DNA of 64,000 nt from Candidatus Gastranaerophilales bacterium (GTDB taxonomy: Bacteria; Cyanobacteriota; Vampirovibrionia; Gastranaerophilales; Gastranaerophilaceae). Within the stretch, counting starts at the first letter, position 1. Each line of letters starts with the position of its first letter. The notes under the pieces are model-generated. The model was not told the origin of the DNA. It ran no database searches and saw only the letters and a list, made by a program, of their open reading frames with translations. Of the stretch, positions 6,431 through 8,329 are shown in pieces. Both the position numbers and the translations under genes were made by a program. The stretch covers positions 1 through 64,000 of the forward strand of contig CALUPH010000009.1 in the NCBI GenBank assembly GCA_944322615.1, in the 5' to 3' direction.

Positions 6431-7117
6431 TTATTTCATATCCAGTAGGATTTTTGTTGTGTCTTTTATTAGTCCTGCTGCCCATTTTAATATTAGAATA
6501 CCTCCAAGTATTCCTATTATTGAGTCGAGGCTTGTAATCTGAAAATATTTTCCTGCAAGCAGTGCTATAATCGCTAAAACGGATGTTAAAGCATCTGCCA
6601 ATATATGTAAGTATGCTGCCTTATAATTGTAGTCTTCATCTGTATGATTATGTTCTTTATTTTCTTCTTCTGTTTTTTCGTGGCAATGATTATGTTTGCT
6701 TTCCATTATAAAAATACATACTGTATTTACTATTAAACCTATAATTGCAACTAAGATTGCATCATCAAAATTAATTTTTAACGGATGTATAAATCTGTCT
6801 ATAGCTTCAACTATTATCCAAAATCCTGTTAAACCTAAGAAAATTGAACTTGTGTATCCCGCAAGTGTTCCTATTTTATCTGTTCCATTCTTAAATCTAT
6901 CTGAATTTGCCAGTTTTCTGGTTAATACATATGCCAAAAAGGTTAATGTTAGTGCAAGTGCATGTGTTCCCATATGGTAACCGTCTGCCAGTAATGCCAT
7001 TGAGTTTGTTATATATCCATATAAAATTTCGGCAAACATTGCTATAATCGTGAATATAATTACAATCAACGTTCTGTTTTCGTTTTCTTTACAGATTTCT
7101 TCTTTGTGTTCGTGCAT
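6431..7117 (-). CDS. dmeF: Cation diffusion facilitator, DmeF-like metal exporter
   Basis: A 228-residue inner-membrane CDF transporter with about six membrane segments, expected to export a divalent metal in exchange for protons. The paired metal-site motifs are DGYHMGTH in TM2 and HILADALT in TM5. Between TM4 and TM5 is a His-rich loop (KHNHCHEKTEEENKEHNH) typical of DmeF-type exporters. The C-terminal cytoplasmic domain of longer CDF proteins is absent. It lies 16 bases behind a MarR regulator, so the two form a metal-responsive operon. Whether the metal is Co, Ni or Zn cannot be told from sequence. Confidence 0.85.
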   Translation of the reverse strand: MHEHKEEICKENENRTLIVIIFTIIAMFAEILYGYITNSMALLADGYHMGTHALALTLTFLAYVLTRKLANSDRFKNGTDKIGTLAGYTSSIFLGLTGFWIIVEAIDRFIHPLKINFDDAILVAIIGLIVNTVCIFIMESKHNHCHEKTEEENKEHNHTDEDYNYKAAYLHILADALTSVLAIIALLAGKYFQITSLDSIIGILGGILILKWAAGLIKDTTKILLDMK

Positions 7118-7133
7118 ATATACCTCTATTTAA

Positions 7134-7580
7134 CTATAATCTTTCACTTAAATATTGATTGTAGTTCTCTAAAAATTCTTTTATAATCTTTAATTTTTTT
7201 TCTTCTATTTTGTTAAAGTAGTTTAAATCTCCTGAACAAAAAGAACTGTGTATTTTTTCGTGTTCATTAAATGCAATTTTACCTTGCTGAGTTAAATTGT
7301 AGTATATTTCTTTCTTGTTCGATTTATCGGTATATGTTTCTATAAAGCCTTTATTAATCAACTTTTTTATTATTTTACTTATACCGCCTCGCGTTATATT
7401 CAAAAGTTCTGATAATTTAGTTACATTTGCTCGCTCTATTGTGCCAATGTAATTGATGCAGTGCATTTCAGAAAAACTTAAATCCTTTACCAATTCGCCT
7501 GATTTTTCTTTCAAATGTTTATCTATTTGTTCTTGTTTTCTTGCTATATCTTTTATTAAGTCCAGAAGTTCTTCATTCAT
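7134..7580 (-). CDS. MarR-family regulator, possible zinc sensor
   Basis: 148 residues with a central winged helix-turn-helix (LSELLNITRGGISKIIKKLINKGFI, quoted in two parts: LSELLNITRG and GISKIIKKLI). His40, His107 and His111 match in position and spacing, as I remember them, three ligands of zinc site 1 in AdcR/ZitR, with an acidic residue beside His107. This makes metal sensing likely rather than phenolic-ligand sensing. The gene is immediately upstream of the dmeF-like exporter and downstream of two identical 20-base repeats that overlap its promoter, so autoregulation and control of dmeF are expected. Confidence 0.85.
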   Translation of the reverse strand: MNEELLDLIKDIARKQEQIDKHLKEKSGELVKDLSFSEMHCINYIGTIERANVTKLSELLNITRGGISKIIKKLINKGFIETYTDKSNKKEIYYNLTQQGKIAFNEHEKIHSSFCSGDLNYFNKIEEKKLKIIKEFLENYNQYLSERL

Positions 7581-7587
7581 AATAATA

Positions 7588-7607
7588 TTGTTTCCTTGTC
7601 AACAAAA
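7588..7607 (-). promoter_or_regulatory. Operator-like repeat, proximal copy
   Basis: First of two identical 20-base copies; on the minus strand it reads TTTTGTTGACAAGGAAACAA, with TTGTT and AACAA arms forming an imperfect palindrome. It lies between the predicted transcription start and the MarR ATG. Confidence 0.7.
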
Positions 7608-7609
7608 TT

Positions 7610-7638
7610 ATTATAACTCTGTTTTGTTTCCTTGTCAA
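7610..7638 (-). promoter_or_regulatory. Consensus sigma70 promoter of marR-dmeF
   Basis: The minus strand has TTGACA at 7638-7633, a 17-base spacer and TATAAT at 7615-7610, a perfect match to the consensus. The -35 hexamer is embedded in the distal operator-like repeat. Confidence 0.8.
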
Positions 7639-7643
7639 CAAAA
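7624..7643 (-). promoter_or_regulatory. Operator-like repeat, distal copy
   Basis: Second identical 20-base copy, exactly 36 bases from the first. It contains the -35 TTGACA of the marR promoter, so a bound repressor would exclude RNA polymerase. Confidence 0.7.
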
Positions 7644-7654
7644 AATAAGAAATG

Positions 7655-8329
7655 TTAAGTAGTTTTCATATCAATAAGAATTTTTACTGTATTTTTTATC
7701 AGTTTGAAAGCCCAAATTATAATCAAAATTGCGCCAATTATTCCTGTTAGTGCATCTAAGTGAATACAATTAAACATTTTTCCAAAGAAAAGTGCGAAAA
7801 TTGTTAGAATTGAAATTAAAACATCTGAAAGTATATGTAGGTATGCTGCAAGATAATTATAATCTTTATTTTTGTACTTTTTATGTTTATGTCGTTGGAA
7901 TTTACCTTCCATAATTGCAACACAAATAAAATTAATTATTAGTGCAAAAATTGCGGCATAGATTGCTTCTGTAAATTTAATTTGTTCCGGAAAAAGGAAT
8001 CTTTCTGCTGATTCTATAAATATATGAATACCTGCAAATGTTAACATTAATGCACTTGTGTATCCGGCTAAAACACCTATTTTATCTGTACCGTTCTCAA
8101 ATAACGGAGAATCTTTTAATTTTCTGGATATAACATAAACAATGTATGTAAGCCCAAGTGTTACAACGTGCATTCCCATGTGATAACCTTCTGCTAATAA
8201 TGACATTGATTGAGTTAAATAACCAAAAACAATTTCGCCTATCATTGCAAAAATAGTTAATAATACTATAATTAGAATATTTTTTTCTTTTCTTAATCTT
8301 ATAAGATATTCAAGTCTTTTTTCGTGCAT
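7655..8329 (-). CDS. Cation diffusion facilitator, paralogue of the DmeF-like exporter
   Basis: About 224 residues with the same layout as the gene at 6431: GYHMGMH in TM2, NGTDKIGVLAGYTSA, and HILSDVLIS in TM5. The loop before TM5 is shorter and has few histidines, so metal preference may differ. I chose the ATG at 8329, one base after the kdsB stop; a TTG at 8344 would overlap kdsB. It ends the accD-accA-prmA-kdsB run and is probably expressed with it, whereas the paralogue is under MarR control. A local duplication is the simplest origin. Confidence 0.85.
   Translation of the reverse strand: MHEKRLEYLIRLRKEKNILIIVLLTIFAMIGEIVFGYLTQSMSLLAEGYHMGMHVVTLGLTYIVYVISRKLKDSPLFENGTDKIGVLAGYTSALMLTFAGIHIFIESAERFLFPEQIKFTEAIYAAIFALIINFICVAIMEGKFQRHKHKKYKNKDYNYLAAYLHILSDVLISILTIFALFFGKMFNCIHLDALTGIIGAILIIIWAFKLIKNTVKILIDMKTT

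Follow-up and report, generated by a model that had tools for sequence, protein, structure and literature searches.

Described relatives

AdcR and ZitR are the zinc uptake repressors of Streptococcaceae. The available sections of one paper (PMC6372160) give the AdcR/ZitR operator consensus as TTAACYRGTTAA, have ZitR binding two operators that overlap the -35 and the -10, and assign Glu24, His42, His108 and His112 to zinc site 1 of AdcR. Another relative, FabT, regulates fatty acid synthesis with acyl-ACP, as the accessible part of PMC5487221 has it. Closest of all is the DmeR-DmeF pair of Vibrio parahaemolyticus where, in the portion of PMC9820535 at hand, zinc, copper and cobalt induce dmeF, and the MarR protein DmeR occupies the dmeRF promoter in the presence of EDTA but not of cobalt. 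Literature searches joining MarR to metal efflux, cobalt, zinc efflux or Melainabacteria yielded nothing close beyond that one Vibrio report.

A MarR gene between two exporter genes

The window, meaning the whole stretch of DNA analysed, is the first 64 kb of a contig from a genome of 1.96 Mb that is 96% complete. The minus-strand gene order is prmA, kdsB, CDF1, the candidate operators, marR and CDF2, the first two names being those we assign from reading of the sequences. The features at issue are:

6431-7117, minus strand: CDF2, a DmeF-type CDF exporter gene downstream of marR (NCBIfam NF033827, 265.7 bits, cut-off 250)
7134-7580, minus strand: marR, MarR-family regulator of 148 aa with H40, H107, H111 and C115
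7588-7605, minus strand: putative proximal operator TTGTTGACAAGGAAACAA, between the -10 box and the ATG, including AAGGA
7610-7615, minus strand: -10 box TATAAT, after a 17-bp spacer and between the two operators
7624-7641, minus strand: putative distal operator TTGTTGACAAGGAAACAA, including the -35 box, kept in 6/6 window-type genomes of the genus
7633-7638, minus strand: -35 box TTGACA, inside the distal copy
7655-8329, minus strand: CDF1, a second DmeF-like CDF gene, upstream of the operators (NF033827, 196.7 bits, below cut-off)

By the NF033827 score CDF2 belongs to DmeF and CDF1, 50% identical to it and on the other side of marR, does not. CDF1 lies upstream of the operators and is therefore not transcribed from this promoter. 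That the regulator is a MarR protein is clear from PF01047 (35.9 bits, cut-off 24.6) and from a structure model (pLDDT 91) with MarR structures as its top matches. The source genome belongs to the genus of Candidatus Avigastranaerophilus faecigallinarum (Gastranaerophilales), and one of its near copies (G001) is a contig of that species.

The sequence TTGTTTCCTTGTCAACAAAA is present in two exact 20-base copies, at 7588-7607 and 7624-7643, and these are 36 bp apart. On the minus strand each holds the 18-mer TTGTTGACAAGGAAACAA, an imperfect palindrome TTGTTnnCnnGnnAACAA in which 12 of the 18 positions are self-complementary. The proximal copy spans the expected transcription start and a Shine-Dalgarno-like AAGGA run (7597-7593, 12 bases 5' of the ATG at 7580). 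A sequence-only reading of this DNA had described just such identical repeats, with the -35 inside the distal one and the proximal one between the -10 and the ATG, and its coordinates agree with ours. Sigma-70 sites with up to two mismatches number 26 in the window, against 28 expected by chance, and TTGACA-17-TATAAT alone among them is free of mismatches. No other exact 20-mer pair with members up to 200 bp apart occurs in the whole 64 kb, and 100 first-order Markov simulations produced no such pair, on which ground a chance repeat was rejected. Simple tandem duplication was also rejected since the bases beyond each copy differ. A genome scan for the 20-base site, as that reading had proposed, gave elsewhere only six matches, all with three mismatches and equal in number to the reversed-pattern control, and the degenerate form TTGTTNNCNNGNNAACAA occurs genome-wide at these two places only; the idea of a genome-wide regulon was dropped on these grounds.

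The sites travel with the regulator

Relatives of the MarR protein are present in 24 of the 41 genomes of the genus (E <= 1e-3). Six of them are 97-100% identical to it and have CDF1-marR-CDF2 with both operators; the remaining 18 are at 37-45%. A TTGTTNNCNNGNNAACAA site is found in 23 of these 24 genomes, the exception (G035) having a contig end there, versus 2 of the 17 genomes without MarR (G010 and G033, in both cases inside an open reading frame), giving a Fisher P of 3e-8.

Across the family, 47 of 366 genomes have the regulator (E <= 1e-10), one copy each, and they were typed by the gene that follows marR: an HMA protein gene with a P-type ATPase gene in type A (26 genomes), a CDF gene in type B (13) and one for an MBL-fold hydrolase in type C (6), with two (G174 and G304) left untyped. 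An operator with no more than two mismatches is present in all 13 type-B loci, six of which are the near-identical window group, and 12 of the 13 have two, spaced by 36 bp in nine loci, 33 in two and 37 in one. All 27 type-A loci taken (26 distinct, L063 and L124 being one contig, and L029 omitted as its contig ends inside marR) have a site; 22 have two, and in 19 these are 63 bp apart. For type C the figures are 5/5 with a site and 4/5 with two, not counting L133 with its contig end just upstream. The regulator tree has type A as one clade (support 100/98) and B and C together (87/91); type B as a clade of its own was not resolved.

CDF relatives away from marR provide the counterpart: none of 24 such loci (L147-L170) has a site with zero or one mismatch, and six have a match with two. 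Because the repeats are kept with the MarR-CDF pair and are absent at CDF relatives without MarR, they are in all likelihood MarR operators through which marR-cdf is autoregulated. The prediction of twin MarR operators serving an exporter operon has thus fared well, as has the expectation that the repeat would be conserved in relatives keeping the gene pair. What the sequences themselves show is where the sites and the promoter lie, how the genes are ordered, and that operator and regulator go together.

Two adjacent CDF genes without marR are seen in 11 loci of genus relatives (L147-L154, L156-L158; 10 genomes type A). Judged by gene order, it is as if marR and its operators had been inserted between CDF genes, or lost from there.

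Sister operons and an old operator

In type A, which makes up 26 of the 47 genomes, marR is followed by the HMA protein gene and by one for a P1B ATPase of Zn/Cd type, and for one full-length type-A ATPase TIGR01512 scores above its cut-off. An ATPase of this type was found in none of the six window-type genomes versus all 17 type-A genus genomes searched; this mutual exclusion of ATPase and CDF looks as if one pump may replace the other.

Several features of these sister loci are worth recording. The HMA protein between marR and the ATPase gene is of 72 aa with a CANC motif (L016:1642-1857 and sister loci), and the L081 ATPase sequence starts after the HMA part of ZntA models. Genera g6 and g34 have the MBL-fold hydrolase gene after the regulator and its twin operators (L121-L123, L125, L127, L133), and in L129 a similar MBL gene is divergent beside a type-A site. 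A metagenome-assembled genome labelled Fusobacterium sp. (L068) carries a Gastranaerophilales type-A operon, the label being probably misassigned.

Type-A sites are mostly TTGTTAACNNGTTAACAA, which contains TTAACNNGTTAA, the AdcR core. In the window, TTGTTGACAAGGAAACAA is lop-sided, with GAC and GGAA where the AdcR/ZitR consensus TTAACYRGTTAA has AAC and GTTAA, and so departs from that consensus; type-B relatives show intermediates such as TTGTTGACAGGTAAACAA.

The sequence-only reading took the operator to be new. It is not, because the exact 18-mer is in Bacillota, mostly before drug-type efflux genes. Nine Bacillota loci were examined (L107-L112, L083, L084, L092), and in six, from Paenibacillus, Listeria, Bacillus velezensis, Paraclostridium, Priestia and a Staphylococcus, the 18-mer is beside a related MarR gene; L083 and L084 are one base off and L111 is without a site. 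An MFS pump gene follows the exact 18-mer in five of the six (that of L092 is presumably such a pump, being named from reading of its sequence), and in Paraclostridium there is no annotated gene at that place. The -35 is inside the 18-mer in several of the loci, and a further site frequently follows the -10. With the AdcR-like core of the type-A sister operons also in view, the operator is old and shared. The Bacillota regulators themselves are a separate clade in the tree (100/99).

In L107, L109 and L110 a weaker TTGTTGAA-like site is 64-66 bases before the regulator's own start. A phage search with a relative gave matches in Listeria and Enterococcus. Text searches of the literature for spellings of the operator found no paper on the 18-mer, and one 13-mer spelling in an unrelated zebrafish paper.

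Three histidines and a widely shared fold

The 148-aa protein has His40, His107 and His111, as the sequence-only reading had pointed out, and they align with His42, His108 and His112 of AdcR. In an alignment of 43 regulators (40 different; 11 of type B, 6 of C, 15 of A, 9 from Bacillota and 2 others) E38 and H107 are in all 43 rows, H40 in 42 and H111 in 41, so that conservation of the histidines among orthologues is borne out. The proposed match to zinc site 1 of AdcR/ZitR stands for these three positions only: the fourth ligand, Glu24, is not conserved, with H, E, M, I or V at the equivalent spacing (18 before the His) in type B and mostly L in type A. Site 2 of AdcR (Cys30, Glu41, Glu107) is not kept either, position 39 being M or L and position 106 being E in 3 of the 11 type-B rows.

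Are the histidines a metal signature, as had been supposed? The triad is complete in six of the nine Bacillota regulators, five of these six adjoining an MFS efflux gene (the exceptions are L112, without H40, and L111 and L084, without H111), and FabT has all three. Since it is common to MFS-pump regulators and FabT, the triad is no proof of metal sensing, and it was rejected as diagnostic of metal binding; it marks a branch of the MarR family instead. It is missing from all four of the source genome's other MarR proteins that were aligned, with two weaker matches (L182 and L183) left out of that count. C115 is found in most rows of type A (12/15) and type B (7/11), together 19/26 with Y or H in the rest, in none of the nine Bacillota rows and in one of six type-C rows. 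As to a possible fourth ligand the pattern is no more than suggestive, and V stands at this position in the DmeR-like protein from Vibrio.

An AlphaFold2 model of the MarR protein, made from 29 sequences, has a mean pLDDT of 91.2. The closest chains to it are FabT (6jbx; Z 15.6, rmsd 2.9, 143 residues aligned) and AdcR (5jlu; Z 15.2, rmsd 2.4, 137 aligned), and within one Z unit of the top come MexR and MepR, which regulate drug pumps, and PefR, a heme sensor, so that all five are tied. The notion that the Bacillota regulators are relatives of YusO was dropped, YusO being weak by sequence; against the window MarR, YusO (1s3j) ranks 49th by fold with Z 13.3.

How the operon may work

We favour, as probable though well short of settled, a metal-derepressed and autoregulated MarR-CDF operon. 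Each of the identical 18-bp operators would carry a MarR dimer, so that one dimer covers the -35, the other the start of transcription with the ribosome site, and marR-cdf is shut off. Excess cobalt, nickel, zinc or a similar divalent metal would then bind the regulator, at a site probably built on His40, His107 and His111, and the metal-bound repressor would leave the DNA, allowing the CDF pump to be made. DNA binding and repression, metal as signal and the metal site are what we infer from the arrangement, and the effector metal and the polarity would follow the same line. Of the earlier claim that metal derepresses an exporter, the exporter target stands and metal is retained as the likely inducer, with the polarity a matter of reasoning from relatives. 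That polarity, opposite to AdcR, had been put forward as a distinction; for a MarR-CDF pair it was already reported with Vibrio DmeR (PMC9820535, in the part available).

Metal is the most likely signal, with cobalt, nickel, zinc and cadmium as candidates, because of the Vibrio precedent, the CDF and ATPase targets and the mutual exclusion of these two; against this, type-C relatives precede an MBL hydrolase and not an exporter. A less likely reading, though one to be taken seriously, is that the MarR protein responds to an organic molecule, be it a drug, a bile compound, a lipid or an acyl chain, with the CDF a recruited target or the inducer acting indirectly. The Bacillota cousins probably do sense such a compound; they have the same operator and promoter layout before MFS efflux genes and, with FabT, the same triad, and the best NCBIfam model for the window protein is FabT, at 67.7 bits with a cut-off of 200. 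Yet in 39 of the 47 genomes the gene after marR is for a metal exporter, an ATPase in 26 and a CDF in 13, two kinds unrelated to each other, the Bacillota regulators stand apart in the tree, and the Vibrio DmeR of PMC9820535, as far as the accessible text goes, responds to cobalt.

It is improbable that metal is instead a co-repressor as in AdcR/ZitR, with the metal-bound protein on the DNA and the CDF made under metal shortage. The AdcR core TTAACNNGTTAA within type-A operators, the two ZitR sites overlapping -35 and -10 (PMC6372160, from its available sections) and the retention of three of the four site-1 ligands would suit such a scheme, but exporters are not targets expected to be induced by metal shortage, Glu24 and site 2 are not kept, and Vibrio DmeR, in what is accessible of PMC9820535, acts in the opposite way. 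That the two repeats are coincidence or a neutral duplication without regulatory role is scarcely credible: AT-richness and the 28 promoter-like matches expected by chance are all that speak for it, and the simulations and the conservation of sequence and spacing across genera speak against it.

Relation to known systems

Would the same hold for the wider group? On balance the evidence is about evenly poised for the Gastranaerophilaceae MarR clade, with its triad and near-AdcR/ZitR operator, being metal-efflux repressors of reversed response, whose target is in some genomes a Zn/Cd P1B ATPase together with its HMA protein and in others a DmeF-type CDF. A single scaffold and a single operator code would then be in use for taking up metal, for exporting metals and drugs and, in FabT, for lipid control. 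A metal-lifted MarR-CDF pair is known already from Vibrio DmeR-DmeF (PMC9820535, on its accessible portion), and the operator is shared with Bacillota. What remains is a conserved branch of putative efflux repressors of the MarR family in gut Gastranaerophilales; the literature searched contained no paper on it.

The Vibrio pair is alike in that a MarR repressor is co-transcribed with a DmeF CDF and cobalt lifts repression; its gene order, dmeF-dmeR, is the reverse of the window's marR-cdf (both points from the available part of PMC9820535). As in MarR-type DmeRF pairs, the window has its MarR gene adjoining dmeF. For sequence comparison the DmeF-MarR pair of Vibrio sp. THAF191d (L175) was used and not V. 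parahaemolyticus DmeR itself: its CDF scores 393 bits for DmeF, and its MarR is 25% identical to the window MarR over 108 residues, with the three histidines aligned. Two palindromes 33 bp apart, TTTGACAGTCAAA and TTTGATAATCAAA, precede that operon and differ from the window's TTGTTGACAAGGAAACAA.

With AdcR/ZitR the window MarR shares the fold (Z 15.2, 5jlu), three of four site-1 ligands and two operators at the promoter, and its type-A relatives have the AdcR/ZitR operator core; it differs in having an exporter as target and in missing Glu24 and site 2, and at 49.7 bits for NF038251 (cut-off 175) it falls outside the AdcR family. FabT is its best sequence match in NCBIfam and the PDB, a tied top fold match and a bearer of the same three histidines, though the NF050133 score of 67.7 bits against a cut-off of 200 places the window protein outside FabT also. 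The Bacillota MarR-MFS loci have the same 18-mer with the -35 within it and frequently another site following the -10, but their target, where annotated or readable, is mostly a drug-type MFS pump whereas that of the window is a CDF, and their strong sites precede the pump and not marR.

If the proposal is right, it would explain how metal export is controlled in gut Gastranaerophilales, and proteins of a single small fold, with three histidines in common, would respond to zinc as co-repressor (AdcR), to metals as inducer (the window MarR and DmeR) and to non-metal ligands (FabT). With fold and histidines shared and responses differing, comparison of natural sequences could reveal the residues that decide ligand and polarity.
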